Shown one piece after another: positions 1 to 12,869 of a stretch of DNA of 13,629 nt. The translations under genes were made by a program, and so were the position numbers. The notes under the pieces are model-generated. The model was not told the DNA's origin. It saw only the letters and a program-made list of their open reading frames with translations, and made no database searches. Every line of letters begins with the position of its first letter. The first letter of the stretch is position 1. This DNA comes from Gammaproteobacteria bacterium (lineage in GTDB: Bacteria; Pseudomonadota; Gammaproteobacteria; J113). The DNA lies in NCBI GenBank assembly GCA_003694425.1, contig RFJX01000012.1, positions 1 through 13,629 on the forward strand. The letters are read 5' to 3'.

Positions 1-17
1 GATGCGGACCATCCTTG

Positions 18-142
18 GCCCGCACCCTTCGGGCGCAGTTCCTGCGTCCCCTTCTGTTCCTGACAGAAGGGTCGACCAGCGCGCAGGGAGCGCGCTGGAA
101 CGGCGAAGCCGGCCCCGAAGGGGCGGAGTACATGGAAGTACT
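18..142. repeat. Array of seven consecutive hairpins (structured intergenic element)
   Basis: Almost every base from 18 to 142 lies in a short inverted repeat. The stems are 18-22/30-34, 34-38/42-46 (5 bp, loop TTC), 49-57/63-71 (9 bp, perfect), 76-84/90-98 (9 bp, perfect, loop AGGGA), 101-104/108-111 (4 bp, loop GAA), 112-116/120-124 (5 bp, loop GAA) and 127-131/138-142 (5 bp, AGTAC/GTACT). The left part is also partly the reverse complement of the right part: CGCAGT followed by a CCCCTTC block recurs inverted. No protein was recognised here. It could be a mosaic of REP-like intergenic repeats, a structured RNA on either strand, or the end of a larger element cut by the window edge. Confidence 0.6.
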
Positions 143-194
143 GCGTAATCCCACCCTCTCTGCCATCTGTCCCCCAACAGGGCCGGCTCGCCTC

Positions 195-204
195 TCCTAT
201 ACTT
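195..204 (+). promoter_or_regulatory. Probable promoter -10 element, sigmaS-like, for the phosphatase gene
   Basis: TCCTATACTT contains TATACT at 198-203, about 30 bases before the ATG at 234. No good -35 sits 16 to 18 bases upstream. A C directly before TATACT and a T after it match the known sigmaS-preferred -10 (CTATACTT). The identical 10-mer occurs before the glycine-zipper gene at 5479-5488. The sigma assignment is inference. Confidence 0.45.
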
Positions 205-233
205 GCTCCTGTCGAAGACAGGAGGCGCGGTGC

Positions 234-683
234 ATGGCGCTTGGCGAGATCCGCAACTTTCTCCACCCGCTGCCGGGGGTCTACTCTTCCGGCCAGCCGC
301 TCGCCCACCAGTTCAACGAGATCGCGGCTGCCGGCGTGCAGGCGGTCATCAATCTGGCCCTGGCCGATTCGGAAGGGGCGCTCCCGCACGAGGGTGGGCT
401 GGTCACGTCCCTGGGGATGGATTACTTCCATCTCCCGGTGAGCTTCGAGGCGCCCACGCTGGAGCGATTGCGCCTGTTCTGTGACCTCATGCGGGTCCTC
501 GAAGGACGCTGCCTCTGGGTCCACTGCGTCCTCAACTGGAGGGTCTCCGCCTTCCTGTACCTGTATCACAGGCGGATACTGGGCTGGAACGAGGAGGAGT
601 CGTCGAGGTTCCTGTTGCCCGGCTGGCAGCCGGACGGCGTCTGGAGGGGGTTCATCGACCGGGCCCTCGAGGCCCGATTCTGA
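234..683 (+). CDS. Small protein-tyrosine-phosphatase-like protein (HCxxNxR family)
   Basis: This 149-residue, probably cytoplasmic protein resembles the compact bacterial tyrosine/dual-specificity phosphatase-like family. It opens with a GVYSSGQP segment (residues 15-22), typical of this fold, followed by VINLAL (about 36-41). The signature loop is VHCVLNWRVSAF, with Cys98 as presumed nucleophile and Arg103 as presumed phosphate-binding residue. The spacing is therefore C-x4-R, one residue shorter than the classical HC-x5-R loop; from memory, relatives carry the same short form. The ATG at 234 is chosen because AGGAGG (220-225) lies eight bases upstream and the conserved fold starts here. 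The frame is open back to 15, but that extension runs through the hairpin array. The gene converges on yqhA with six bases between the stops. The substrate is unknown, and catalytic activity is inferred from the motif only. Confidence 0.8.
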   Translation: MALGEIRNFLHPLPGVYSSGQPLAHQFNEIAAAGVQAVINLALADSEGALPHEGGLVTSLGMDYFHLPVSFEAPTLERLRLFCDLMRVLEGRCLWVHCVLNWRVSAFLYLYHRRILGWNEEESSRFLLPGWQPDGVWRGFIDRALEARF

Positions 684-689
684 GACGTG

Positions 690-1196
690 TCAGTGGTCCC
701 GATGCGCCGCAAAGGCGATCCGGTCCACCACCGCCAGCATCAGGGCGGAGAACACCAGGGTCAGATGAATCAGGGTGTACCACATCAGCTTGTCGTTGCC
801 GATCTGCTCGGCATTCATGAAGGCGCGCAGCAGGTGGATCGCGGAGATGGCGACGATGGCGGCGGCCAGCTTGACCTTGATGGTGCCGGTGTCCAGCTTC
901 CCCAGCCAGCTCAGCTTCTCGGTGGCGTCGGCGGTGTCCAGACGGGAGACGAAGTTCTCGTAGCCGCTGAACATCACCATCACCACCAGCCCCCCCACCA
1001 GCGCCATGTCGATGAGGGAGAGCACGCTCAGCACGAGTGACTTCTCCTCCAGCTCCAGGAGCAGCGGGAACAGGTGGGCCAGTTCGGCGAAAAACTTGAC
1101 CGCCAGCAGGAGCAGCGCCAGGCCCAGCCCGAAATAGAGCGGGGCCAGCAGCCAGCGCAGGGCGAAGAGGACCCGCTCGAATTCTCTCTCCAGCAT
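690..1196 (-). CDS. yqhA: YqhA family inner-membrane protein (UPF0114, TIGR00645)
   Basis: This 168-residue integral membrane protein closely resembles E. coli YqhA along its whole length. Shared landmarks include RWLLAP near the N-terminus, LSLIDMALVGGLVVMVMFSG in the middle, the SGYENFVS segment, a WLGKLDTGTIKVK stretch, AIHLLRAFM and LMWYTLIHL. Four hydrophobic segments are visible, at about residues 10-32, 58-78, 108-127 and 136-157. The biochemical function of the family is not established. The start is firm: GAGGAG lies just upstream and overlaps the TGA stop of the preceding oxidoreductase gene, leaving only nine bases between the two genes. Co-transcription and translational coupling with that gene are therefore likely. 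No terminator is visible before the convergent phosphatase gene. Confidence 0.93.
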   Translation of the reverse strand: MLEREFERVLFALRWLLAPLYFGLGLALLLLAVKFFAELAHLFPLLLELEEKSLVLSVLSLIDMALVGGLVVMVMFSGYENFVSRLDTADATEKLSWLGKLDTGTIKVKLAAAIVAISAIHLLRAFMNAEQIGNDKLMWYTLIHLTLVFSALMLAVVDRIAFAAHRDH

Positions 1197-1205
1197 GGGG
1201 TCTCC

Positions 1206-4200
1206 TCAGATCCGGTCGATCGGCTGCGTGTCGAAGATGTAGTCCAGCCAGAGGTTGGAGAGCTTCTCCTGCACCGTGTTCTGCCGCAGGCGGGCATGCA
1301 GGTTGGGGAAGTCCACATGGTCCAGGGGCTGGTCCTGGTTGTAGCAGGAGTAGACGAAGTGCTCCTCGCCGGTCTCGGGGTCGACGTGCTTGCAGAGACA
1401 CTGGGCGCACACCCCCTTCATCATGCACTGCATCGGGGAGTTGATGGAGCCGATGGCCTCGTGCCGCTGTTTGAGGTAGGGGGCCAGGGCTCCGTGCCGG
1501 GCCTCCTTCACCGCCTGCATCATCCGGTCGGAGCCGATTACCACCATGTGGTCGACGTCGTCGAGATGGATGGGGGTCTCGCCCAGGTCGCCCTTCGCAT
1601 AGGCCAGGATCGACTCGACGATGTTGCCCACGAAGCTCTTGTCCTGCGGCCGGGTGACCGGGATCGGCTCCACCCCGGGGGCGGGATCGACCGACCAGAC
1701 GATGAGGTCGGAGGCCGCCTCGATCTCCTCGACCTTGAACACGTCGCTGGCAAGCTTGTAGCCGGCGAAGTAGATCACCTTGTCGCCCGCGGCGCGCATC
1801 GCCTTGCCGATGGAGAAGAGCACGGCATTGCCCAGCCCGCCGCCGACCAGCATCACGGTGCGACCGCTCGGGATCTCTGTGGGGGCGCCGGTGACACCCA
1901 TCACCAGGACCTCGTCACCCGGCTTCCAGGTGGCGCAGAGGCGGGAGGAGGTCCCCATCTCCAGCGCGATGAGGGAGATGGTTCCGGCCTCCTTGTCCAC
2001 CTCGGCGCCGGTCAGGGCGATGCCCTCGGTGGCCAGCAGGGTGCCTTCGTACTCCGCCGCATGGGCCTCGAAGTTCTGAACCCGGTAGAACTGCCCCGGG
2101 CAGAACTTCTCCGCCGCCCGCGGGGCCTTCACCACCACTTCGACGATGGTCGGTGTGAGTCGCCGGACCGCCACCACAGAGGCCCGCAGCTCGTGGTCGA
2201 GGCGGCCGAACAGTTCGCACAGGGCCGCCTCGCGTGCCGGCTGATCGGCCGGATCGAGCGCTTCCAGGTCCTTGCGGAAGAGGTTGACGATATAGGGGTG
2301 GCCGTCACGGGCGCTGGCCATCGCCTTGACCACGTTGCCGGCGTAGACTGGGTGGTTGTCCCCGTAGAAGCTGATGAACTTGCCGTGCCGCTGATAGGAG
2401 GTCAGGGGCGCCGGGCGGCCGATCTTGGGGTGGGGCTCGTCGTGCACCGGTTCGAGCTCGATCTCCGCGTCCCTCCAGGCCGGTTCGTAGCGCTGGAAGA
2501 ACTTGCCGTTCATCCTGAAGGTGCCGGGGAACTCGCTCTCGTAGATCGTGTTGGGTGAGGTCCCGGCGGCGATGAAGAGGCTGCGCAGCGGCACCTCCTC
2601 GGTGTAGCCGGTGCGGCCCCAGCGGCCGTCTTCCAGCGCCATGCGGTCGAAGCGCACCGCCCGCAGGTGGCCGTAATCGTCGGCCAGCGCCTCGACCGGG
2701 CTCATCCCCTCGGCCAGGCGGATGCCCTCGTCCAGGGCCTCGGCGATCTCCTCGTGGTTCTGCCGGTAGGCGGGGGAGTCCTTCATCCCCTTGCGGTAGA
2801 ACATGGTCACCCCGCCCCATTCGTTGAGCAGGGGGAGGAAATCGGGTGTCTCGCCGGCCTGTTCGGCCCGCCTGCGCTCGGCGCGGATTGCCCGGCCGTG
2901 GCCGAGGAACTCATCGAGGATCTCCGTCTCCTCCTCGTCGTACATCGCCCGGACCCGCTCCTCGCCGTAATGGAGGCAGAGGGCCTCGTAGCGCTGCAGC
3001 AGCTTCTCGACCTGGACCGGGTAATAGGCGAGCAGCTCGGTGGCGGTGTCGATGCCGGTGAGACCGCCGCCGATGACGCCGGCGGGGAGGCGGACCTGCA
3101 GGTTGGCCAGGCTCCCGTACTTGGCGGCGCCGGTGAGCTGCAGGGCCATGAGGAAATCGGAGGCCTTGCGGATCCCCCGGATCAGGTTGTTCTCCAGATT
3201 GATGATGGTGGGCTTGCCGGCACCGGCGGCGATGCAGATGTGGTCGAAGCCCAGGTCCCAGGCCTCGTTGATGGTGATGGTGCCGCCGAAGCGCACCCCG
3301 CCGTAGGCGCGGAAGCTGTGCCGGCGCAGGAGGTTGATGTAGATCACCTTGAGGAAGTTCTTGTCCCAGCGCGCGGTGATGCCGTACTCGGCCACCCCGC
3401 CGAAGCCGTTGAGACGGCGGCTCGCCAGGTCCTCGTAATGGTCCCGGAAGTCGCGGATCGGCTGCGGTGGGGTGTCACAGTCGCCGATCAGCTCCTTCGG
3501 CAGGGGCTCCAGCTTCAGACCGTCGATGCCGACCACGCCGAAGCCCTCGTTCAGCAGGTAGTGGGCCATGGTGTAGCCGGCCGGCCCCATCCCCACCACC
3601 AGCACGTTCTTGCCGTTGTAGGGCAGCGCCACCGGACGCTTCACGTTGAGCGGGTTCCAGCGAGTGAGCAGGCTGTAGATCTCGAAGCCCCAGGGCATGA
3701 ACAGGACATCCGTCAGGACATTGGTCTCGATCTGGGGGATGTTGACCGGCTCGGTCTTCTGATAGATGCAGGCCTTCATGCAGTCGTTGCAGATCCGGTG
3801 GCCGGTGCCCGGCAGCATCGGATTGTCGATGATGATCGTGGCCAGGGCGGCGATGTTGTCGCCCTGCCGCTTGAGCAGGTGCATCTCCGAGATCTTCTCG
3901 CCCAGGGGGCAGCCGGTGTTGATCACGCCCAGGGGATTGGTCTGGAACTTGCCGGTCTTCTTGTTGCGCATCCCCTTGGAGCAGGAGTCGGTATCCCGCT
4001 CGTGGCAGTAGATGCAGTGGTCCACCTCGTACAGGACCCTACGCTCCGGGAAGCGGGGATCGGTCAGATGAAATCCGTCGCGGCGACGATGTCTTCCCGG
4101 AGGGGAGACCCAGGCGCGATAGGGGCCGACCTCCACTTCACCGTGTGCCACCAGGTCGTCGAAGTCCCGCTTCTCCGGCTGGCGGAAGAGCTCCCAGCCG

Positions 4201-4904
4201 GCCACGCGCTGCCGCCACTCCGTCCGGTCCCGGGCGGCGAGGAACCAGCGGGCGGCCCGCTTCAGCAGGGCCTGGGTGAATTCCAGCGGGTCTTCCAGAG
4301 CAATCACTTCGGCAAGGCCGGCCTCCCCCGCGAGGGCCTGGCGCAGCCCCGCCAGCAGCCTCTCCGCCTCCGGGAACCCGCCCTCCTTGCCTCTGGCCAG
4401 GGCCTGGTAGTGGCCGGCGAGGCGGGCCAGGGTCGCGCCCACGCGGCTGACCGCCCGCTCCTCGTCCGCGTCTTCGGCGGCCCCGGGGATCGCCCGGCGC
4501 AGGAGGTTCATCTCCGCATCCAGGGCCTGAAGGTCATAAGAAGCAGGGTCCTCTCCCCGCAACAGGGCCTTGAGTTTCGCCACCAGCTCGCTGCGGCAGG
4601 CAAAGACGGTGTCGAAGACTTCCCCGATCTCTCCGGCCTGCTCCTCCCGCAGCTCCTCCACGCGGAAGAGGCGGGCGACGAAGGTACCCACGTGCGGCGC
4701 CACCTCCAGCATCAGCTGCGAGACCTCGGTCGGCGCCATGCCTTCGCCGCCACATTCGTGCCACTCACGGTACCGCCGGTAGAGGGGTTCGTCGATCTCC
4801 TCGAGGCGCCGCTCGAAGGCCGTCAGGAGGTCCGCCAAGCGTGTGGGATCGTGCAGATCCGGATAGCTGAAACCTTCCAGCCCGAGGCACAGGTCGTTGC
4901 TCAT
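1206..4904 (-). CDS. Large fused FAD/Fe-S oxidoreductase: unknown N-terminal domain + GltD/NfnB-like + PyrK/NfnA-like
   Basis: This 1232-residue, apparently cytoplasmic flavoprotein has three parts. Residues 1 to about 290 are charged, largely helical and unassigned. Residues about 295-880 resemble GltD or the NfnB large subunit. They contain C297-x2-C300-x7-C308-x23-C332-P, C372-x2-C375-x3-C379 with a later Glu393, a dinucleotide fold VVGMGPAG (about 435), a second one IGGGLTG (about 610), and GDNHPVYAGNVV near the end of the module. Residues about 900-1232 resemble PyrK/NfnA or ferredoxin reductase: CPGQFYR (about 935), VGGGLGNAV (about 1020) and a 2Fe-2S-type cluster C1160-x5-C1166-x2-C1169-x-C1171-x15-C1187. 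NfnAB transfers electrons between NADH, NADPH and ferredoxin by flavin-based bifurcation; whether this fusion does so is inference. An ATG further upstream would lie in the promoter -35, so 4904 was chosen; AGGGTGA precedes it. yqhA follows directly. Confidence 0.85.
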   Translation of the reverse strand: MSNDLCLGLEGFSYPDLHDPTRLADLLTAFERRLEEIDEPLYRRYREWHECGGEGMAPTEVSQLMLEVAPHVGTFVARLFRVEELREEQAGEIGEVFDTVFACRSELVAKLKALLRGEDPASYDLQALDAEMNLLRRAIPGAAEDADEERAVSRVGATLARLAGHYQALARGKEGGFPEAERLLAGLRQALAGEAGLAEVIALEDPLEFTQALLKRAARWFLAARDRTEWRQRVAGWELFRQPEKRDFDDLVAHGEVEVGPYRAWVSPPGRHRRRDGFHLTDPRFPERRVLYEVDHCIYCHERDTDSCSKGMRNKKTGKFQTNPLGVINTGCPLGEKISEMHLLKRQGDNIAALATIIIDNPMLPGTGHRICNDCMKACIYQKTEPVNIPQIETNVLTDVLFMPWGFEIYSLLTRWNPLNVKRPVALPYNGKNVLVVGMGPAGYTMAHYLLNEGFGVVGIDGLKLEPLPKELIGDCDTPPQPIRDFRDHYEDLASRRLNGFGGVAEYGITARWDKNFLKVIYINLLRRHSFRAYGGVRFGGTITINEAWDLGFDHICIAAGAGKPTIINLENNLIRGIRKASDFLMALQLTGAAKYGSLANLQVRLPAGVIGGGLTGIDTATELLAYYPVQVEKLLQRYEALCLHYGEERVRAMYDEEETEILDEFLGHGRAIRAERRRAEQAGETPDFLPLLNEWGGVTMFYRKGMKDSPAYRQNHEEIAEALDEGIRLAEGMSPVEALADDYGHLRAVRFDRMALEDGRWGRTGYTEEVPLRSLFIAAGTSPNTIYESEFPGTFRMNGKFFQRYEPAWRDAEIELEPVHDEPHPKIGRPAPLTSYQRHGKFISFYGDNHPVYAGNVVKAMASARDGHPYIVNLFRKDLEALDPADQPAREAALCELFGRLDHELRASVVAVRRLTPTIVEVVVKAPRAAEKFCPGQFYRVQNFEAHAAEYEGTLLATEGIALTGAEVDKEAGTISLIALEMGTSSRLCATWKPGDEVLVMGVTGAPTEIPSGRTVMLVGGGLGNAVLFSIGKAMRAAGDKVIYFAGYKLASDVFKVEEIEAASDLIVWSVDPAPGVEPIPVTRPQDKSFVGNIVESILAYAKGDLGETPIHLDDVDHMVVIGSDRMMQAVKEARHGALAPYLKQRHEAIGSINSPMQCMMKGVCAQCLCKHVDPETGEEHFVYSCYNQDQPLDHVDFPNLHARLRQNTVQEKLSNLWLDYIFDTQPIDRI

Positions 4905-4942
4905 GGAGTCACCCTGATGTTGCAGCACAACAAAGCGGGGCA

Positions 4943-4971
4943 TCATAACGGCTGGAGGCCCCTGCATCAAT
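4943..4971 (-). promoter_or_regulatory. Sigma70-like promoter of the fused oxidoreductase gene
   Basis: Read on the minus strand, TTGATG (4966-4971) and TATGAT (4943-4948) are separated by exactly 17 bases. They match the sigma70 consensus at four and five of six positions. Transcription would begin near 4936, giving a leader of about 32 bases before the ATG at 4904. This argues against any start codon upstream of 4936. Confidence 0.65.
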
Positions 4972-4984
4972 GCGGGAACGCGGC

Positions 4985-5350
4985 TCAGGCCAGGGCGGAG
5001 ACGACACCGAGGGCGATCAGCAGCCAGAGCGCCCCGCCGAGGAGGGAGACCACGGCCGCTGCCGGATGGCGGACCATCTGGTGTGCCAGCACCATCGCCG
5101 CCGCGAGCAGCCCCAGCGCGATGCCGGACAGCAGCAGGCCTGCCATGCCTGCCTGGACCCTGGCGACGCCGGGGACCCAGTCAAGGGCCAGCGCGACGAG
5201 CGAGAAGGGACCGGACAGGAGGAGCAGGAAACAGCCCGGGCACTGGTAGCGGATGCCGAAGCCGGTGCTGACGGCGAGGATGAGGGCCACGGAGGCCAGG
5301 CTCCAGGGTGAGAACTTCTGCACTTGCTGCTCCTGTGACGGGGTGGGCAT
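4985..5350 (-). CDS. Hypothetical small membrane protein with CPGC motif
   Basis: I do not recognise this 121-residue protein. After a polar start of about 12 residues it has four hydrophobic stretches, at roughly residues 15-32, 38-55, 67-87 and 96-119, so it is probably a four-helix inner-membrane protein. A short Tyr-Gln-Cys-Pro-Gly-Cys segment (about 35-40) between the first two helices contains the only paired cysteines, which could be redox-active or metal-binding; that is speculation. The only ATG available at the N-terminus is 5350, preceded by a weak GAG-type ribosome site. The gene ends 80 bases upstream of the large oxidoreductase, which has its own promoter, so co-regulation is possible but not shown. 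Codon use matches the neighbours. Confidence 0.65.
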   Translation of the reverse strand: MPTPSQEQQVQKFSPWSLASVALILAVSTGFGIRYQCPGCFLLLLSGPFSLVALALDWVPGVARVQAGMAGLLLSGIALGLLAAAMVLAHQMVRHPAAAVVSLLGGALWLLIALGVVSALA

Positions 5351-5478
5351 GGCCGCTCAGACGCAGGCGGGAACCATGGTTGTCGCCGTGTGTCCCCGTG
5401 CCGGACCGGGGCCCGGCCTCGCCACGGCCCCTTCCGCCCGTCAGGATAACCCATTCGTGGTCCACCATCGCCAGGCTG

Positions 5479-5488
5479 TCCTATACTT
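5479..5488 (+). promoter_or_regulatory. Probable sigmaS-like -10 element of the glycine-zipper gene
   Basis: TCCTATACTT, followed by AA, contains TATACT at 5482-5487. It is an excellent fit to the sigmaS-preferred CTATACTTAA and has no convincing -35. Transcription would start near 5494, leaving a leader of about 55 bases before 5549. The same 10-mer lies before the phosphatase gene at 195-204. Apart from this element I see nothing assignable between 5351 and 5548. Confidence 0.5.
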
Positions 5489-5548
5489 AACATCGTCGGG
5501 GTCCCGGATCCATGGGAACCCTGTATGGTCACCTGGAGAACGACAGTG

Positions 5549-6043
5549 ATGTTGAGAAATCTGGTCCTGGCACTTTCATTGCTGGCTCTGGCCCAGGCCG
5601 GTCACGCGGTGAATGACGAGTGTGGCGGCTCCTCCGGGGGCGGCGAGGTGATGGGGACCCTGCTGGGTGCCGCCATCGGCGGGCTGGTCGGCTCACAGTT
5701 CGGCAAGGGGACCGGCAAATCGGTGGCCATCGGCGCGGGCGTCTTCGCCGGCGGGTTGCTGGGCAACCAGATCGGCGAATCGCTCGATTGCCGGGACCGG
5801 CAGTACAACAACGCCACCGCCCAGAAGACCCTCGAGAGCCAGCCCTCCGGAACCACCTCCACCTGGGTCAATCCCGACAGCGGCAATCAGGGCAGCATCA
5901 CCCCCACCCGCACCTGGCAGCGGGAGGACGGCACCTATTGCAGGGACTTCGAACAGACCATCACGGTGGAGGGCAAGACCCAGAAGGCGACTGGCACCGC
6001 CTGCCGCCAGCCGGACGGTACCTGGCAGATCGTCAACAAGTGA
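5549..6043 (+). CDS. Exported glycine-zipper 2TM surface-antigen-like protein
   Basis: This 164-residue protein resembles the 17-kDa surface antigen / RT0821-Lpp0805 type of cell-envelope protein. It begins with a signal peptide (basic start, hydrophobic core at residues 5-15, likely cleavage after AGHA at 20). A glycine-zipper region follows at about 30-75, with repeated GxxxG spacing (LLGAAIGGLVGSQFGKGTG, then GVFAGGLLGNQIGE), a pattern known to insert in or associate with the outer membrane. The C-terminal half carries the family-like segments YCRDFEQTI and ACRQPDGTWQI. Four cysteines (25, 81, 131, 152) could form disulfides in the periplasm. There is no cysteine at the predicted cleavage site, so I do not call it a lipoprotein. 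The ATG at 5549 is preferred over 5525 because GGAG lies ten bases upstream and the signal peptide is then of normal size. Its precise role is unknown. Confidence 0.85.
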   Translation: MLRNLVLALSLLALAQAGHAVNDECGGSSGGGEVMGTLLGAAIGGLVGSQFGKGTGKSVAIGAGVFAGGLLGNQIGESLDCRDRQYNNATAQKTLESQPSGTTSTWVNPDSGNQGSITPTRTWQREDGTYCRDFEQTITVEGKTQKATGTACRQPDGTWQIVNK

Positions 6044-6053
6044 GCTGGCCGGA

Positions 6054-6863
6054 TCAGGCCAGCGCCTGCCTCGCCTGCTCGGCCGTCTCGCGGACCTCCT
6101 CGGCCTCGAGCTCCTCGGTGTCGGCGTTCAGCCCCAGTCGCCCGTAGGCGGTGACCTCGGACAGAGGGACCCCGGCCTCCCCGCCATTCTGCAGGAAGGC
6201 CACCTGCACCAGATCGACATAGTCGGCCTCACCATCGATCTGGCGGGTGAAGTCTACATAGTGCATCGGCACCGGCTGGACCGGCTCCGGCAGCTCCCAG
6301 GCCCGGGCGATCAGGCCGCCGACCAGCGGGTGCAGTTCCCTCACCAGCTCGCGGAAGGGCTCTTCCTCCAGTGAATCGGTGCGTTCCTCCGCGTACATCA
6401 GCAGCGGCAGGGCCCCGATCTGGTGGATAAGACCGGCCAGCATGGCCAGCTCGGGATTGAGCCGGGGGGCGAAGGCGACCAGGGCCCGGGCCATGGCGGC
6501 GACGCTGACGCTCTGTTCCCAGATCTCCCGCATCATCTGCGCCAGCATCTGTTTGCGGGGCTGGAACAGCTGCTGCATCGCCAGACTGGTGACAAGGGAC
6601 TGTACCGTGCCGAAGCCCATGCGCATGATCGCCGACTGCAGGTTCTCGAAGGGGACCGCGCCCCGGTAGAGGGGGCTGTTGGCCACCTGGAGCAGGCGCG
6701 CGGTCATGGCCGGGTCCTGGGCCACGATGTCGGACAGCTTCTTCGCCGTCACGTCGTCACTGGCCACCGCCTCGCGGACCCGCATGGCGACATCCGGCAG
6801 GGTGGGCAGGACCAGGGATTCGTCCGCGATCGCCTGGTGGATCTCGTTGAGCAGGTTTTCCAT
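6054..6863 (-). CDS. HDOD domain signalling protein
   Basis: This 269-residue cytoplasmic protein is dominated by an HDOD domain at about residues 18-210. It begins with LPTLPDVAMRV, continues with LSDIVAQDPAMTARLLQVAN and an AIMRMGFGTVQSLV helix, and has AGLIHQIG where true HD phosphohydrolases carry His-Asp. Because that Asp is replaced, catalysis is unlikely. HDOD proteins act as scaffolds in signalling, motility and cyclic-di-GMP networks. The C-terminal 40 residues are acidic (EELEAEEVRE). The ATG at 6863 is chosen because GGGAGAGG lies about seven bases upstream; the open frame continues to 6962 but runs through the tRNA terminator and the promoter. The gene is monocistronic, transcribed from a sigma28-like site, and converges on the glycine-zipper gene with ten bases between the stops. 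Confidence 0.9.
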   Translation of the reverse strand: MENLLNEIHQAIADESLVLPTLPDVAMRVREAVASDDVTAKKLSDIVAQDPAMTARLLQVANSPLYRGAVPFENLQSAIMRMGFGTVQSLVTSLAMQQLFQPRKQMLAQMMREIWEQSVSVAAMARALVAFAPRLNPELAMLAGLIHQIGALPLLMYAEERTDSLEEEPFRELVRELHPLVGGLIARAWELPEPVQPVPMHYVDFTRQIDGEADYVDLVQVAFLQNGGEAGVPLSEVTAYGRLGLNADTEELEAEEVRETAEQARQALA

Positions 6864-6903
6864 GGTACAGCCTCTCCCGGTGAGTAATGTGTCGCTACGG
6901 GAG

Positions 6904-6930
6904 GTATCGGCTGCCAGGAGGAAAGATTGA
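6904..6930 (-). promoter_or_regulatory. Sigma28 (FliA)-like promoter of the HDOD gene
   Basis: On the minus strand, TCAATCTT (6923-6930) and GCCGATAC (6904-6911) are separated by exactly 11 bases. The sigma28 consensus TAAAGTTT-N11-GCCGATAA is matched at five of eight positions upstream and seven of eight downstream. The site lies between the tRNA terminator and the HDOD start and would give a leader of about 30 bases. It suggests flagellar or chemotaxis-linked expression. Confidence 0.5.
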
Positions 6931-6943
6931 GCCCTGAAGAAAC

Positions 6944-6969
6944 AAAAAAGGCCTGCGTGCACGCAGGCC
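6944..6969 (-). terminator. Intrinsic terminator of the tRNA operon
   Basis: 6950-6969 is a perfect 20-base palindrome (GGCCTGCGTG/CACGCAGGCC). On the minus strand it is followed at once by six T residues (6949-6944) and then G, T, T. It lies ten bases past the end of tRNA-Lys. Confidence 0.92.
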
Positions 6970-6979
6970 CCGGAAGAGA

Positions 6980-7055
<76 letters not shown>

Positions 7056-7063
7056 GCAATGTA

Positions 7064-7140
7064 TGGGGTGAGCGATGGGACTCGAACCCACGACCACCGG
7101 GATCACAACCCAGGGCTCTACCAACTGAGCTACGCTCACC
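7064..7140 (-). tRNA. tRNA-His (anticodon GTG)
   Basis: The acceptor GTGAGCG pairs with CGCTCAC. An extra G at 7140 can pair with discriminator C73 (7067), the hallmark of tRNA-His. The anticodon stem CTGGG/CCCGG encloses loop TTGTGAT with anticodon GTG. CCA is encoded (7066-7064). It lies eight bases from tRNA-Lys. Confidence 0.96.
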
Positions 7141-7173
7141 ATAGTATCGTCGTTCCCCATTTTCTAGGGGGTG

Positions 7174-7247
7174 CGCCCCGGGAGGGACTCGAACCCCCGA
7201 CCTAGTGCTTAGAAGGCACTTGCTCTATCCAGTTGAGCTACCGGGGC
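7174..7247 (-). tRNA. tRNA-Arg (anticodon TCT), no encoded CCA
   Basis: The acceptor GCCCCGG pairs with CCGGGGC. The anticodon stem AGTGC/GCACT encloses loop CTTCTAA with anticodon TCT. A standard TTCGAGT T-loop is present. After discriminator G (7174) the sequence reads CAC rather than CCA, so the 3' end must be added by the CCA-adding enzyme, unlike the other three tRNAs of this operon. Confidence 0.95.
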
Positions 7248-7261
7248 CCAGGCAAACCTTA

Positions 7262-7338
7262 TGGTCGGGGCAGAGGGATTCGAACCCCCGACCCTCTGCT
7301 CCCAAAGCAGATGCGCTACCAGACTGCGCTATGCCCCG
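7262..7338 (-). tRNA. tRNA-Pro (anticodon TGG)
   Basis: This 77-base tRNA is the first gene of the operon. The acceptor CGGGGCA pairs with TGCCCCG. The anticodon stem CTGCT/AGCAG encloses loop TTGGGA-type bases with anticodon TGG. The D-loop GCGCAGTCTGGTAGCGC and T-loop TTCGAAT are typical of proline tRNA, and CCA is encoded (7264-7262). Confidence 0.96.
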
Positions 7339-7371
7339 ACGGACTGACGATGAGCCGGTCAAGGACAGGCG

Positions 7372-7400
7372 ATGATACGCAGGGACCCCGTTTTCGTCAA
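7372..7400 (-). promoter_or_regulatory. Strong sigma70 promoter of the tRNA operon with GC-rich discriminator
   Basis: On the minus strand, TTGACG (7395-7400) and TATCAT (7372-7377) are separated by exactly 17 bases. The bases after the -10 (CGCCTG) are GC-rich, as is usual for stable-RNA promoters under stringent control. The -35 begins four bases after the cysS stop codon. Confidence 0.85.
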
Positions 7401-7403
7401 TGG

Positions 7404-8795
7404 TCAGGCGCGGCGCCAGGTGGTTCCGCCGGGGCCGTCTTCCAGCACCACCCCGGCCTCCTTCAGCCGGTCCCGGATCCGGTCCGATTCGGCCCAGTCC
7501 CTGCGCTCCCGCGCCGCGCTGCGTTCGGCGACCAGGCGCTCGATTTCCTCGTTGGACAGCCCGCCGCCTGCGGCCGTTCCCTCCTTGAGGAACTGCTCCG
7601 GATCCTCCTGCAGCAGGCCGAGCACCCCACCCAGGCTCCTCAGGGTGTCGCCCAGGACCACGGCGCGGTCGGGGTCGCGGTCACGGACCCGGTTGATCTC
7701 GTGGGCCAGATCGAACAGCACCGCCAGTGCCTCGGGGGTGTTGAAGTCGTCGTCCATGGCCTCGGTGAAGCGCTCCACGTAGGACTGCTCGAGGGTGCCA
7801 TTGCCCCGCGGCAGGCCGCGCAGGGCGGTGTAGAGACGGGCCAGCGCCCCCCGGGCGTTCTCCAGGTTCTCCTCGGAATAGTTCAGTGGACTGCGGTAGT
7901 GGCTGGAGAGGATGAAGAAGCGGATCACTTCGGGCCGATAACGGGCCAGGACCTCGCGCACGGTGAAGAAGTTGCCCAGCGACTTGGACATCTTCTCCTC
8001 GTCCACCCGGACGAAGCCGTTATGCATCCAGATGTTGACGAAGGGCTCTCCGGTGGCCCCTTCGGACTGGGCGATCTCGTTCTCGTGATGGGGGAACTGC
8101 AGGTCCTGTCCGCCGCCATGGATGTCGAAGTGGTTGCCCAGGCAGGAGGTGGACATGGCCGAGCACTCGATGTGCCAGCCGGGGCGGCCCGGCCCCCAGG
8201 GTGAGTCCCAGCTCGGCTCACCCGGCTTGGCCCGCTTCCACAGGACAAAGTCCAGGGGGTCGTCCTTGCTCTCTTCCACCTCGACCCGGGCCCCGGCCCG
8301 CAGCTCCTCGGGGTTCTTGCCGGAGAGCCTGCCGTAGCCCTCGAAGGCGCTGACGTCGTAATAGACGTCGCCGTTCTCGCCCACGTAGGCCAGCCCCCGG
8401 TCAATCAGGGCCTGGATCATGGCGATGATCTCGTCGATGTGTTCGGTGGCGCGCGGCTGCTCGTCCGGCGGCAGGACTCCAAGGGCGGCGGCGTCCTCTT
8501 CCATGGCCCGGATGAAGCGATCGGTGAGGGTGCGGATGTCCTCGCCGTTCTCGGCTGCCCGGCGGATGATCTTGTCGTCTATGTCGGTGATGTTGCGCAC
8601 GTAGTGGACGTCGTAGCCGCGCCAGCGCAGGTAGCGGGTCACCATGTCGAAGACCACCATCACCCGGGCGTGGCCGATGTGGCAGTAGTCGTACACGGTC
8701 ATGCCGCAGACGTACATGCGTACCTTGCCCGGCTCGATCGGCCTGAGCGGCTCCTTGCGCCGGGTCAGGCTGTTGTAGATCATCACTTCGCTCAT
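7404..8795 (-). CDS. cysS: Cysteinyl-tRNA synthetase
   Basis: This 463-residue class I aminoacyl-tRNA synthetase charges tRNA-Cys in the cytoplasm. HIGH is at residues 39-42 and KMSKS at 268-272. The zinc ligands match the E. coli arrangement: Cys30 (YVCGMTVYD), Cys211 (WHIECSAMS), His236 and Glu240 (HHENE). Length is normal (E. coli 461). The C-terminal part ([27 protein letters not shown]) is the usual anticodon-binding region. The start is uncertain: the ATG at 8795 is best placed for homology, but the only good ribosome site, AAGGAG (8819-8814), lies 18 bases away; an ATG at 8786 or a TTG at 8822 are alternatives. The gene is divergent from the cyclophilin genes and directly upstream of the tRNA operon, which has its own promoter. 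Confidence 0.97.
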
Positions 8796-8830
8796 GACGG
8801 TCGGCGTCCGTGGCTCCTTCAAGGGCGCGC

Positions 8831-8859
8831 ATGGTAAAGTAAAAATCCTGTCTCACCAA
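8831..8859 (-). promoter_or_regulatory. Possible cysS promoter in the divergent cysS/cyclophilin region
   Basis: On the minus strand, TTGGTG (8854-8859) and TACCAT (8831-8836) are 17 bases apart, each with only partial consensus match. Transcription would start near 8824, about 30 bases before the cysS ATG. On the plus strand the AT-rich TAAAGTAAAAA (8835-8845) could serve the cyclophilin operon, but I find no convincing -35 for it. Confidence 0.35.
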
Positions 8860-8883
8860 ACCGTGAGGGGCCGTTTCCCGAAG

Positions 8884-9456
8884 ATGCGTAGATCGATACT
8901 GCTGCTGCTAGCCGCCCTGCTGCTGACCTCCTCCCTCGGCTTCGCCGCCGACCTGCCGCGGGTCCGTCTGGTCACCAGCCTCGGCGACATCGTGGTCGAG
9001 CTCTATCCCGACAGGGCACCGAAGACGGTGGCCAATTTCCTGCGCTACGTCCGCGAGGGCTTCTACGACGGCACCATCTTCCACCGGGTGATCCGGGACT
9101 TCATGATCCAGGGGGGCGGCTTCACCACCGATTTCCGCTTCAAGGAGACCCATGAGCCGATCCCGAACGAGGCCGACAACGGGCTCTCCAACGAGCGCGG
9201 AACCATCGCCATGGCACGCACCGCCGATCCCCATTCCGCCACCGCCCAGTTCTTCATCAACGTGGTGGACAATCCCTTCCTGGACTTCCGGGTGAAGACG
9301 GTGCGCGGCTGGGGCTACACCGTCTTCGGCCGGGTGGTCGAGGGGATGGAGACCGTCGACCGGATCCGCGAGCTGCCCACCGGCCCCGGCGGCCCCTTCC
9401 CGGCCGACGTCCCGCGGCAGCAGGTGGTGATCGAGAAGGCGGTGGTGGAGGAGTGA
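8884..9456 (+). CDS. Exported peptidyl-prolyl cis-trans isomerase, cyclophilin (PpiA-like)
   Basis: This 190-residue cyclophilin catalyses cis-trans isomerisation of Xaa-Pro bonds, probably in the periplasm. A signal peptide covers residues 1-21 (MRRS, then a leucine-rich core, cleavage near GFA/AD). The cyclophilin core follows: FHRVI with the key Arg68, then Phe73 and Gln76 in [24 protein letters not shown], and [12 protein letters not shown]. The start was placed at 8884 because this ATG opens a normal signal peptide; the frame is open back to 8794 but that runs into the cysS start region. The ribosome site is weak (GAGGGG 13 bases upstream). The gene ends two bases before the ATG of the cytoplasmic cyclophilin, so they form an operon. 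The two genes share unusually similar DNA (see findings). PpiA is the likely counterpart, but orthology is not proven. Confidence 0.93.
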
Positions 9457-9458
9457 CC

Positions 9459-9962
9459 ATGCGGGTGAAACTTGAGACCACGCACGGCCCCGTCGTGCTG
9501 GAGCTGGACGAGGAGAGGGCGCCGCAGACGGTGGAGAACTTCCTCCGTTACGTGCGCGAGGGCTTCTACGACGGCACCATCTTCCACCGGGTGATCGGGG
9601 GCTTCATGATCCAGGGTGGTGGCCTGACCGCGAACCTGGAGCGCAAGCCCACCGGCGAGCCGATCCCCAACGAGGCGGCCGGCGGCCAGTCCAACCTGAC
9701 CGGCACCATCGCCATGGCGCGCACCGCCGACCCCCACTCCGCCACCGCCCAGTTCTTCATCAACACCGCCGACAACACCTTCCTCGACCATCAGGGTGAG
9801 ACCCCCGAGGGTTGGGGTTACGCGGTCTTCGGCCGGGTGGTGGAGGGCATGGAGGTCGTGCGCCGGATCGAGGGGCAGGCCACCGGCAGCCGGGGAGGGT
9901 ACCAGGACGTCCCGCTGGAGAGTGTGGTCATCGAGCGGGCCACCCTGCTCGAGAGTGAATAG
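9459..9962 (+). CDS. ppiB: Cytoplasmic peptidyl-prolyl cis-trans isomerase B (cyclophilin)
   Basis: This 167-residue cyclophilin without a signal peptide should assist folding in the cytoplasm. It carries the complete core: FHRVI with Arg44, then Phe49 and Gln52 in [29 protein letters not shown] and [15 protein letters not shown]. Its length is normal for bacterial PpiB (about 164). The ATG at 9459 is used because GGAGGAG (9447-9453) lies at proper distance inside the end of the upstream gene; a GTG at 9453 is less likely. It sits between the exported cyclophilin and lpxH; a ppiB-lpxH neighbourhood near cysS is common in Pseudomonas-type genomes. Confidence 0.95.
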   Translation: MRVKLETTHGPVVLELDEERAPQTVENFLRYVREGFYDGTIFHRVIGGFMIQGGGLTANLERKPTGEPIPNEAAGGQSNLTGTIAMARTADPHSATAQFFINTADNTFLDHQGETPEGWGYAVFGRVVEGMEVVRRIEGQATGSRGGYQDVPLESVVIERATLLESE

Positions 9963-10040
9963 CACGGGAAGGCCTGGAGGCGGCGGCCACCGGCACGATC
10001 AGGCGCCTGAACGGTCTCGCCGGTCCAGGGCCCGGCTGCC

Positions 10041-10766
10041 GTGACGGCGCTGCTGGTCTCCGATCTCCACCTGGACGAGGCGCGCCCGGAGAAACTGGCG
10101 CTCTTTCTGCGCCTGCTCGAGCGGGCGCGGGCCTGCCGCGAGCTCTACATCCTGGGGGACCTGTTCCAGCTCTGGCTGGGTGACGACGACCTCCGGCCAC
10201 CGCACCCGGAGATCCTGCAGGGGCTGCGCGGTCTCAGCGAGGTCGGCGTCCGGGTCCGGGTACAGCGCGGCAATCACGACTTCCTCATGGGGCGGGGATT
10301 CTGCCGGGCCACCGGTGCGCGGCTGCTGCCCGACGAGGCGAGGGTGGAACTGGCCGGGGTCCCGGCCCTGTTGATGCATGGCGACACCCTCTGCACCCTC
10401 GACCGCGAGTACCAGCGTTTCCGCCGGTTCACCCGCATCCGTCCGCTTCAGCCGCTGTTCACAGCCATGCCGCTCGCCTGGCGGCTCCGCAAGGCGGCCT
10501 CGATCCGGGACCAGGCCATGACCCGGGGACGGAACAAGGCTCCGGAGCTGATGGACGTGACCCGGGAGGCGGTGGCTGGAGCGATGCGCCGCCACGGCGT
10601 GCGGCTCCTGGTCCACGGCCACACCCATCTGCCCGCCGTCCACCGCTTCGAGCTGGACGGGGCGCCGGCACGGCGTATCGTCCTTGGTGACTGGTTCGGC
10701 AACGAGAATGTGCTGGTGTGCGATGAAGGGGGCCAGCGACTGTTGCCGCTGGGGGAGTTCCTGTAG
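10041..10766 (+). CDS. lpxH: UDP-2,3-diacylglucosamine diphosphatase LpxH
   Basis: This 241-residue calcineurin-like metallophosphoesterase hydrolyses UDP-2,3-diacylglucosamine to lipid X and UMP, the fourth step of lipid A synthesis, at the cytoplasmic face of the inner membrane. All metal-binding positions of the E. coli enzyme are present with matching spacing: Asp8 and His10 (SDLHLD), Asp40 (LGDLFQLW), Asn78 and His79 (RGNHD), His113 (HGD) and His194 and His196 (HGHTH). Length equals the family norm (240). It begins with GTG; a weak AGGG lies about eleven bases before it, and no ATG is available that would keep the SDLHLD motif. It is 78 bases downstream of ppiB, probably in the same operon, and converges on ampE. 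Confidence 0.97.
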   Translation: MTALLVSDLHLDEARPEKLALFLRLLERARACRELYILGDLFQLWLGDDDLRPPHPEILQGLRGLSEVGVRVRVQRGNHDFLMGRGFCRATGARLLPDEARVELAGVPALLMHGDTLCTLDREYQRFRRFTRIRPLQPLFTAMPLAWRLRKAASIRDQAMTRGRNKAPELMDVTREAVAGAMRRHGVRLLVHGHTHLPAVHRFELDGAPARRIVLGDWFGNENVLVCDEGGQRLLPLGEFL

Positions 10767-10787
10767 CGGCTCCGGCCGGCGGCCGCC

Positions 10788-11636
10788 TCAGCCGACCCAG
10801 CCGGCCAGGGTCAGCAGTGCCAGCAGGGTGAGCCAGAGCAGGAGGGCGCGCTTGACCAGCTCCCAGGCCTGGGCGACCAGCTCCCGTTCATCCGTCTCCC
10901 CGGCCTCGGGCCGGAGCGCGGCCAGGCCGCTGTCGCGCAGCAGGGGATGGCTGGCATCCAGATTGGTCCATTCACGCCAGCCCGGTACCGCCAGGGCATG
11001 GGTCATGCTGCCGGCCAGGGCGTAACCCAGCGCCAGCAGGCGGGCCGCGGGCCATTGCAGGATCCGGTGCAGGTCCCGGGCGGCACCGGCGAAGCCACCG
11101 TCGGCGCCCGCGCAGCGCTCCAGCTCCGCTCCCATGCGGTAGAGCAGGGCGCCGGTGGGCCCCAGGACCGTGAACCAGAAGAAGGCCCCGAACAGCCGCT
11201 CGCAGGCGAGGACCATCACCGCCCCGGCGACGTCACGCCCGTTCTGCTCCCCGGGAGTGAGGCCCGAATCCTCCAGCAGGGCATAGGCCATGCGGCTGGC
11301 CGCGGCCTGATCACCCGATTCCAGTGCCGCGAGATACTCCCGCAGCTGTCGTCCGAGGTCCTGCGGACCGAGGGCGTAGAGCAGGATGAGCAGTCCCAGC
11401 AGAAAGCCGAGCAGCAGCGACCGGTCGCCCACCGCCTCCAGGACGAGCGCGATCAGGACCAGCGGCAGCGCCAGCACCACGAGAACGCCCACCGGTCCCT
11501 GCCAGAGTTCGAAGCGGCCCAGGTGCCGCTGCATCCGGGCGGTGTAGACCCGGAACCAGTTCCAGCGGCGCAGGTCCTCGAGCGGCCCCATCAGGTACTC
11601 CACCAGCAGGACCAGGAGGATGGCGATCAGGGTCAT
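10788..11636 (-). CDS. ampE: AmpE-like inner-membrane regulatory protein (CobD/CbiB superfamily)
   Basis: This 282-residue polytopic membrane protein matches the length of E. coli AmpE (284). Hydrophobic segments are at about residues 1-15, 48-68, 72-90, 145-165 and at the C-terminus (about 258-280). Landmarks are the opening LLVEYLMGPLEDLRRWNWF, the cytosolic stretch with LEDSGLTPGEQ, FWFTVLGPTGALLYRM and a DLHRILQWPAARLLALGYAL segment, typical of AmpE. AmpE is linked to AmpD and to beta-lactamase induction by peptidoglycan recycling, but its biochemical activity is not settled. The ATG at 11636 is chosen over upstream in-frame starts because those lie inside ampD and this one begins the conserved N-terminus. 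It follows ampD by 13 bases with a weak AAGAG ribosome site, so translational coupling is likely. Confidence 0.9.
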   Translation of the reverse strand: MTLIAILLVLLVEYLMGPLEDLRRWNWFRVYTARMQRHLGRFELWQGPVGVLVVLALPLVLIALVLEAVGDRSLLLGFLLGLLILLYALGPQDLGRQLREYLAALESGDQAAASRMAYALLEDSGLTPGEQNGRDVAGAVMVLACERLFGAFFWFTVLGPTGALLYRMGAELERCAGADGGFAGAARDLHRILQWPAARLLALGYALAGSMTHALAVPGWREWTNLDASHPLLRDSGLAALRPEAGETDERELVAQAWELVKRALLLWLTLLALLTLAGWVG

Positions 11637-11649
11637 GCGCTGCGTCTCT

Positions 11650-12204
11650 TCAGGAGGCGGTGAGCAGGTCCCGGAAGAGCCTCCAGTCGAAGGCCGGCCC
11701 GGGGTCGGTCTTGCGGCCGGGGGCGATGTCGGCATGGCCGACGATGCGCTCCGGACAGAGGGCAGGATAGCAGGCCATCAGCGCCCGCGCGATCTCCGCC
11801 AGGCGCCGGTACTGGGCCGGTGCATAGGGGATGTCGTCCATCCCCTCCAGCTCGATGCCGATGGAGTAGTCGTTGCAGTCGGGACGCCCCTCGTAACAGG
11901 ACCGGCCGGCGTGCCAGGCGCGCCGGCTGAAAGGGACATACTGGATCGCTTCCCCGTCCCGGCGGATCAGCAGATGGGCAGAGACCCGGAGTCCCGCGAT
12001 CTCCCGATAGTAGGGGTGCGCCCCGGGGTCGAGCCGGTTGGTGAACAGCTCGGTGATCCCCTCCCCACCGTACTCGCCCGGAGGAAGGCTGATGCCGTGG
12101 ACCACCAGCAGGTCGATCTCCCCTTCCCCCGGGCGCTCGTCCGCGTTGGGCGAGGGGATGAAGCGGACACCCTCCAGCAGTCCGCTGCGCGGGTCGACCC
12201 GCAT
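11650..12204 (-). CDS. ampD: 1,6-anhydro-N-acetylmuramyl-L-alanine amidase AmpD
   Basis: This 184-residue cytoplasmic zinc amidase cleaves the stem peptide from anhydro-muramyl peptides during cell-wall recycling and so lowers the inducer of AmpR-controlled beta-lactamase. Zinc ligands and catalytic residues align with E. coli AmpD (H34, E116, H154, K162, D164): His36 in VVHGIS, Glu118 in IGIELEG, His157 in VGHADI, Lys165 and Asp167 in APGRKTDPG. No signal peptide is present, as expected for AmpD rather than a periplasmic paralogue. The ATG at 12204 follows the TAG stop of the ankyrin gene with no base between them, and GGAG inside the upstream gene acts as ribosome site. AmpE follows directly. 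No ampR or ampC is visible in the window. Confidence 0.97.
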   Translation of the reverse strand: MRVDPRSGLLEGVRFIPSPNADERPGEGEIDLLVVHGISLPPGEYGGEGITELFTNRLDPGAHPYYREIAGLRVSAHLLIRRDGEAIQYVPFSRRAWHAGRSCYEGRPDCNDYSIGIELEGMDDIPYAPAQYRRLAEIARALMACYPALCPERIVGHADIAPGRKTDPGPAFDWRLFRDLLTAS

Positions 12205-12711
12205 CTACTGCTTCTGCTCCGCCGGCTCCTCCGCGCCGGCTGCCTTGAGCACCTCGACCACCGCCTGGTGCCCGCCCCGGGTGGCCAGGGAAAGGGCGTT
12301 CTGTCCCCCCTTGTTGGCGGCGTTGACCTCGACGCCCCGGCCCAGCAGCATTTGCACTGCCTCGAGCTGGCCATTGGCCGCCGCCTCGGTCAGGGCGGTG
12401 TTGCCGGCCTCGTCGGCGGCCGCCGGGTCGGCGCCCCAGGCGAGCAGCAGCCGCATCACGCGGGCGTTGCCATAGGCCGCTGCCACCATCAGCGCGGTGC
12501 GGCCGCCCGGACCCCTGGCATTGACATCGGCGCCGGCGGCCAGCAGGGCGCGCAGCTGCTCAATCCTGCCCGCCGCGGCGGCGGCCAGCAGTTCCTGTGC
12601 CGCGGGCGTACCGGCGGCCGCCTGCCCTCCGGTGCCCCCGGCGGGGGCGGCGCCGGTCACCGGCGAGAGGGCGGTCAGCAGCAGGAGGGCGATGGTCATC
12701 AGTCTCGTCAT
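12205..12711 (-). CDS. Secreted ankyrin-repeat protein
   Basis: This 168-residue protein has a signal peptide (TRLM, then a leucine-rich core, cleavage near residue 21 after VTGA), a Gly/Ala-rich linker and four ankyrin repeats at about residues 37-66, 70-99, 103-132 and 136-163. Each repeat carries the usual consensus pieces, for example GRTALMVAAAYGN, LLLAWGADP, GNTALTEAAANGQ and LLGRGVEVNA. It should be a periplasmic protein-binding module; the partner is unknown. No cysteine is present at the cleavage site, so it is not a lipoprotein. It is first in an operon with ampD and ampE, and its stop abuts the ampD start, which hints at a link to cell-wall recycling. The ATG at 12711 lacks a clear ribosome site; an ATG at 12699 would also work. 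Confidence 0.88.
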   Translation of the reverse strand: MTRLMTIALLLLTALSPVTGAAPAGGTGGQAAAGTPAAQELLAAAAAGRIEQLRALLAAGADVNARGPGGRTALMVAAAYGNARVMRLLLAWGADPAAADEAGNTALTEAAANGQLEAVQMLLGRGVEVNAANKGGQNALSLATRGGHQAVVEVLKAAGAEEPAEQKQ

Positions 12712-12747
12712 GGAGGGGATATCGGCAGCACCGCCAGTTTACTTGAA

Positions 12748-12764
12748 CCGGCGCGGGCGTTGCA
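12748..12764 (+). promoter_or_regulatory. Possible sigma54 (-24/-12) promoter for the symporter gene
   Basis: The site reads CCGGCGCGGGCGTTGCA. It has the invariant GG (12750-12751) and GC (12762-12763) at the required ten-base spacing and a perfect TTGCA, but differs from TGGCAC at two positions. Transcription would begin near 12776, about 95 bases before the ATG. In DNA this rich in GC, chance matches occur. An alternative sigma70 reading (TTGCAC, 17 bases, TACAAA) overlaps it. Confidence 0.3.
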
Positions 12765-12869
12765 CGGGGCGGCGCGAGAAGGTACAAAGCTGCCACGCCC
12801 CGTTTCCTGGAGGGCCCGGCAAGGGGACGGAAGCGGCGCGCGAGGCAGGAACAGACCGGAGAGCCAGCC

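Follow-up and report, generated by a model that had tools for sequence, protein, structure and literature searches.

A large family of Nfn-like single-chain flavoproteins represented by a probable NAD(P)H-ferredoxin oxidoreductase

The closest described relatives of the protein analyzed here are the NfnAB enzymes, which couple NADPH, NAD+ and ferredoxin by electron bifurcation. According to Liang et al. (2019; PMC6405883), the large subunit NfnB carries its cluster ligands in the motifs RCx2Cx4Cx3CPV and GRVCPQExQCx3C...ER, Arg187 of Thermotoga maritima NfnB lies on N5 of the bifurcating flavin adenine dinucleotide (FAD) and is conserved in all Nfn, and NfnA binds a [2Fe-2S] cluster of +80 mV through the motif DGTGMCGxCRx10CV with an aspartate ligand. 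They divide Nfn homologues into four patterns. Three of these are uncharacterised fusions, among them Pattern C, which occurs in Actinobacteria, Alpha- and Gammaproteobacteria and has its NfnA part at the C-terminal end. A second survey encountered Nfn in just a single aerobe and reported that, Fix apart, bifurcating enzymes are almost missing from aerobes (Poudel et al., 2018; PMC6085437). Here we describe a gene of 1232 codons on contig RFJX01000012.1 of a Gammaproteobacteria bacterium (assembly GCA_003694425.1), of which the 13,629 nucleotides from position 1 to 13,629 were analyzed and are called the window. Its product joins both Nfn modules in one chain behind an additional helical domain and is probably a soluble single-chain Nfn-type NAD(P)H-ferredoxin oxidoreductase.

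The gene and the parts of its product are laid out as follows.

1206..4904, minus strand: whole gene, 1232 codons plus stop, with an ATG start at 4904, supported by full-length homologues
4170..4904, minus strand: all-helical, fast-evolving N-terminal domain, residues 1-245, with no fold match in the PDB
3705..4052, minus strand: two predicted [4Fe-4S] sites, residues 285-400, from conservation and the alignment with the large subunit of NfnI
2295..3644, minus strand: FAD-1 and NADP(H) Rossmann domains, NfnB/GltD-like, residues 421-870
3369..3371, minus strand: Arg512 codon; the residue pairs with Arg187 of T. maritima NfnB in the alignment
2814..3026, minus strand: helical insert in the NADP(H) domain, residues 627-697, seen in the model and unpaired in the alignment with the large subunit of NfnI
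1476..2189, minus strand: FAD-2/NAD domain, PyrK/NfnA-like, residues 906-1143 (5jca_S, E 3.4e-17; Foldseek TM 0.89 by target)
1209..1457, minus strand: predicted four-Cys [2Fe-2S] site and end helix, residues 1150-1232, from conservation and the model

By sequence, the nearest solved proteins were the two subunits of Pyrococcus furiosus NfnI (small, E 3.4e-17; large, E 8.7e-16), and both the NfnB-like and the NfnA-like module were supported by sequence profiles and by the predicted structure. This bears out what had been seen from the letters alone (the sequence-only reading), namely an NfnB/GltD-like module with two dinucleotide folds, followed in the same chain by an NfnA/PyrK-like FAD/NAD module with cysteines of its own; the C-terminal part gave the PyrK/NfnA-like match to 5jca_S. 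In Pfam, only Pyr_redox_2 scored above its cut-off. The best NCBIfam model was NF005128/PRK06567 with 602.3 bits, under the curated cut-off of 1072, and the next were the GltD-PyrK fusions PRK12778 and PRK12779, far under their cut-offs (97.4 bits versus 1519 for NF009415, the PRK12779 model). PRK06567 was likewise the best model for all eight relatives scanned, the match taking in the N-terminal domain in most cases, and all nine proteins stayed below its cut-off (602 bits for the window protein, 473-820 for the others); the profile has 1031 positions, compared with 1232 residues in the window protein. The N-terminal helical domain was predicted with confidence and folds on its own in the model, its median identity in a diverse alignment is 0.33, and a fold search against the PDB gave no match. 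An extra helical domain of about 290 residues had been proposed; the domain is there, and in the model it extends over residues 1-245 and not 1-290.

The predicted ligand sets of the two [4Fe-4S] sites are C297/C300/C308/E393 and C332/C372/C375/C379, an assignment of ligands to sites that we take to follow dihydropyrimidine dehydrogenase (DPD). Near the C-terminus stand cysteines 1160, 1166, 1169, 1171 and 1187, of which C1160/C1166/C1169/C1187 form the predicted [2Fe-2S] site. In an alignment of 318 sequences, eleven of these twelve ligands were found in every protein and C308 in 317; C1171 is poorly conserved (194/318). In a diverse set of 113 sequences the twelve ligands were present in 113/113, except C308 (112/113). 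Both alignments count the window protein and exclude short frames (under about 1,000 residues in the larger set, under 1,100 or 1,000 in the diverse one), so that the latter is without locus L140, which is cut by a contig end and, in a set of 25 aligned rows, lacks the first eight ligands. All eight NfnB ligands are thus kept, with E393 aligned to the ER of the NfnB motif, in the spacing Cx2Cx7Cx23CP and Cx2Cx3C, which does not match the literal NfnB motif. The 23 residues between the third cysteine (C308) and the CP motif (C332), to which the sequence-only reading had drawn attention, proved to be a family-wide feature with small length changes only.

At the flavin sites, Arg512 is an arginine in 113/113 and 318/318 sequences, and it is retained together with the twelve ligands in relatives down to 38% identity. 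Arg704 is an arginine in 113/113, and residue 705 is lysine in 89, arginine in 21 and another residue in three; the two positions may correspond to the pair of arginines that Nfn has at the NADP 2'-phosphate. Where NfnA has the strand ERxPxT at FAD-2, the window protein has EGIALT, with Thr965 kept in 104/113.

Compared with NfnAB (P. furiosus NfnI, 5jca/5jfc; T. maritima, 4ylf/4yry), the window protein shares both modules, the two [4Fe-4S] ligand sets including the glutamate, the arginine at N5 of the FAD, and an FAD-2/NAD module with a [2Fe-2S] site. It differs in being one chain with the large module first, in its extra N-terminal domain and a 70-residue insert in the NADP domain, and in having a four-Cys [2Fe-2S] site and EGxALT in place of ERxPxT. 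The fusion and the order of the modules, large before small, had been read as signs of an under-described enzyme. As fused Nfn proteins with a C-terminal small module are described in PMC6405883, neither is new in kind: Pattern C proteins, too, are uncharacterised single chains that end in the NfnA module. The homologues surveyed there are 40-90% identical to Clostridium kluyveri NfnAB, whereas the window protein is about 19-29% identical to solved Nfn; relative to the 2,274-bp clostridial fusion, Pattern C proteins have about 200 additional residues and the window protein about 475. The present family appears to lie farther from solved Nfn than those homologues and has an extra domain. The points that the sequence-only reading missed are the four-Cys [2Fe-2S] site, the retained glutamate and FAD N5 arginine, and the ferredoxin and sulfate-assimilation neighbours in some distant relatives.

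The window protein also resembles PyrK of dihydroorotate dehydrogenase B (DHODB) in its FAD/NAD module and its predicted four-Cys [2Fe-2S] site, the PyrK motif being a four-Cys [2Fe-2S] site. Unlike PyrK, it is fused to an NfnB-like module and has no PyrD-like domain in its chain.

A protein search returned at least 7,999 homologues, all significant, which excludes chance as the origin of the open frame; a second search with a Pyrinomonadaceae member as query likewise gave at least 7,999 significant matches. The best 120 homologues matched over their full length with 66-92% identity to the window protein. The claim that this is an under-described enzyme holds insofar as our search of open-licence literature yielded no characterised relative and no biochemical description; the protein nevertheless belongs to a very large family, with PRK06567 as the nearest named one. 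The architecture has precedents, and the family is named only by computer. Carriers among the matches listed include Methylococcus, Methylobacter, Methylocaldum, Archangium, Corallococcus and the cyanobacterium Leptolyngbya, with methanotrophs, myxobacteria and Acidobacteriota among the lineages. The genera recognised are mostly aerobes. One metagenome-assembled genome among the listed matches is labelled Candidatus Desulforudis, an anaerobe. The distribution in Pseudomonadota is patchy (17 of 398 genomes at E<=1e-50, the window's own counted); the gene was found in 18 of 149 genomes from the phylum of the Pyrinomonadaceae genome, and among 56 relatives including the window's own genome, 15 had any match at 1e-3 and eight a strong one. 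Two full copies are present in Methyloglobulus morosus (L027/L055; about 66-68% identity to the window protein), Methylocaldum sp. 14B (L030/L058; 61%) and genome G025 (L122/L125). A TTG at 4970 is a possible longer start; in an alignment of 198 sequences, at least 90% have methionine at position 1, which speaks against it, although the locus proteins included had been trimmed beforehand to their first ATG. The PF14691 profile matched a single protein in the window's own genome, encoded away from this gene.

The genomic surroundings of some distant members suggest ferredoxin as the partner. An FdxA-like ferredoxin was detected in all 22 carriers scanned (of 23 known), in 14 of them above the family cut-off, and the window's genome also encodes FdxA. 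At a threshold of 80 bits or more, four of 23 loci (G004, G025, G026, G394) had FdxA at most 5 kb away from the gene, versus 0.15 expected; these loci come from 22 Pseudomonadota carriers and count the window, which has no FdxA nearby. Three independent events would give P 0.0005. FdxA adjoins the gene on plasmid pTcM1 of Acidithiobacillus caldus, and the 2-oxoacid:ferredoxin oxidoreductase KorAB adjoins it on the opposite strand in two loci (L133, L134) and lies near it in one of 18 Acidobacteriota loci.

On pTcM1 (L082, 4582-11471) the row consists of an AprA-like flavoprotein (PRK08275), a 77-residue Fe-S protein, a HEAT protein, FdxA and the family gene, with ABC transporter genes near. 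In L125 the same four genes stand 3.4-5 kb upstream of the family gene, with ABC transporter genes between. This gene row is possibly an unstudied sulfur pathway. In L121 and L124, from genomes of different families, FdxA, a GrxD-like gene, the family gene, NadA and a second ferredoxin-like gene occur together, NadA and the second ferredoxin having been named by eye.

In other distant members, the gene stands among those of sulfate assimilation. In genome G115 (L137) it is the last of a series comprising sulfite reductase, a CysG-like gene, CysH, CysD and CysN-CysC. In G406 (L138) it follows CysD and CysN-CysC, overlapping the latter by 4 bases, and another contig (L191) holds sulfite reductase, a second gene and CysH. 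In G154 (L129, L186) a run of a sulfite/nitrite reductase-like gene, a 180-residue gene, CysH, CysD and CysN is followed after about 4 kb by the gene, behind two regulator-looking genes. A scan of these three genomes for CysJ gave no match in any. The NF010029 sulfite reductase was found in 70 of 398 Pseudomonadota genomes. Of these, 67 also match CysJ with at least 500 bits (59 above the cut-off, eight at 513-637 bits), and the other three, G115, G396 and G406, gave no CysJ match at all. The gene is present in two of these three (G115 and G406) versus one of the 67 with CysJ (G012, CysJ 513 bits), a difference with a Fisher p of 0.0037, uncorrected for kinship.

We infer the cofactors, the direction of electron flow, the ferredoxin partner and the choice of pyridine nucleotide. 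In the proposed NAD(P)H-ferredoxin oxidoreductase, NADPH (or NADH) would bind the second Rossmann fold and pass a hydride to FAD-1, whose N5 would face Arg512. Single electrons may then exit through the Glu-ligated [4Fe-4S] cluster (C297, C300, C308, E393) and the all-Cys [4Fe-4S] cluster (C332, C372, C375, C379) and reach a ferredoxin, for which an FdxA-type protein is the likeliest candidate; the other branch would connect the C-terminal [2Fe-2S] cluster (C1160, C1166, C1169, C1187) and FAD-2 to NAD(H). In the cell, the enzyme may supply or drain ferredoxin for ferredoxin-dependent steps, with sulfite reduction as one such step in some lineages.

Several observations weigh against this proposal. 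FdxA proximity was tested after the adjacency had already been noticed, and G004 and G026 have neighbours in common (a GrxD-like gene and, by eye, NadA), so that they possibly represent one event. FdxA was also present in 17 of 22 hand-picked non-carriers and is hence common without the gene, and KorA occurs in six of the 22 carriers only. By tblastn, FdxA was near the gene in one of 80 close-relative loci, at a distance of 6.4 kb, and in none of 18 Acidobacteriota loci; neighbour clustering of these 80 and 18 loci revealed no recurrent partner beyond shared synteny, and tblastn with cys queries found none near the gene in either set. The support from gene context therefore comes from distant members only. 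The CysJ comparison rests on three genomes, and the operons of two of them (G115 and G406) had been noticed beforehand. A NIR_SIR domain was not seen in four of 22 carriers (G004, G026, G049, G394), three of which have FdxA near the gene, and NF010029 occurred in four of 41 genomes of close relatives, which cover 43 of the 80 loci. Since four carriers lack it, sulfite reductase is not the general partner; these gaps and the rarity of NF010029 make ferredoxin the more plausible partner for the family as a whole, with sulfite reduction as one use. The same data bear on the rather unlikely alternative that the protein is the dedicated electron donor of assimilatory sulfite reductase, replacing CysJ directly or via ferredoxin. 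The cys context in G115, G406 and G154 favors it, with sulfite reductase standing in the first two without a CysJ match, as does the window's genome, where we found a 563-residue sulfite/nitrite reductase-like protein and FdxA and no CysJ match, in an assembly only 76% complete. The NIR_SIR gaps, the 37 of 41 close-relative genomes without the NF010029 type, the lack of cys neighbours in the 98 loci searched, and G012, which holds both CysJ and the gene, speak against it. CysJ, a diflavin protein with flavin mononucleotide (FMN) and FAD, also differs from the window protein in architecture.

Whether the enzyme bifurcates electrons, coupling NADPH, NAD+ and ferredoxin as NfnAB does but in aerobes, is a separate matter, on which our view is tentative and leans towards doubt. 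Sites for every NfnAB cofactor are present, and the invariant Arg512 at FAD-1, kept with all clusters, would allow it. Against this stand the replacement of ERxPxT by EGxALT, the mostly aerobic carriers set beside the near-absence of such enzymes from aerobes reported in PMC6085437, and the [2Fe-2S] site. In the family alignments the Asp ligand of Nfn was not found; the site has four cysteines in 113/113 sequences, spaced C-x5-C-x2-C-x17-C in the window protein, instead of Asp and three Cys, so that the protein probably lacks the +80 mV sink of Nfn, which speaks against Nfn energetics. A bolder combination, in which an aerobic Nfn branch bifurcates through a high-potential four-Cys branch, the N-terminal domain, with no matching fold in the PDB, selects the ferredoxin and CysJ has been displaced in some bacteria, appears unlikely. 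It is very improbable that the protein reduces an organic substrate, like DPD or DHODB, with the N-terminal domain binding the substrate or a partner: DPD is among the structural matches and the N-terminal domain is unassigned, but the predicted model lacks the TIM-barrel FMN domain on which DPD and DHODB rely, and the all-helical N-terminal domain varies fast, unlike an active site. Least probable of all is a subunit-like role in glutamate synthesis or ubiquinone hydroxylation, as suggested by the database name of PRK06567, the nearest NCBIfam model. That name lists only homologous modules, GltD-type NCBIfam models score weakly on the nine proteins (window and eight relatives), and no GltB-type partner was recognised by eye among the neighbours read, no GltB profile search having been made.

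Directly downstream of the gene, the window contains one further feature of interest.

690..1196, minus strand: gene for a UPF0114/TIGR00645-type membrane protein (PF03350, E 1.5e-33), 9 bases after the stop of the family gene

A UPF0114 gene also stands directly before the family gene in L123 (5157-5708, minus; 33 bases) and, in L040, at a distance of 68 bases, on the same strand as the family gene in all three cases. This recurrence in the window and in two of 119 scanned loci possibly reflects a functional link; the UPF0114 gene is a possible operon partner and probably not part of the enzyme. Elsewhere in the window are a cluster of four tRNA genes (6980-7338, minus; Pro, Arg, His, Lys in order of transcription), two adjacent cyclophilin-like peptidyl-prolyl isomerase genes named by eye (8794-9456, with a signal-like start, and 9453-9962, both plus, overlapping by 4 bases), and a gene for a small ankyrin-repeat protein with a signal-like start (12205-12711, minus), just upstream of an AmpD-like gene identified by eye.

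Nfn surveys based on similarity to the clostridial enzymes would probably miss this family. If its members transfer electrons from NAD(P)H to low-potential ferredoxin, this would help to explain ferredoxin-dependent steps without the usual reductase, such as CysJ in G115 and G406. If they bifurcate, a bifurcating Nfn branch in aerobes would overturn the survey result of near-absence except for Fix. The four-Cys cluster is a naturally occurring variant in which the need for the Asp ligand in bifurcation could be tested.

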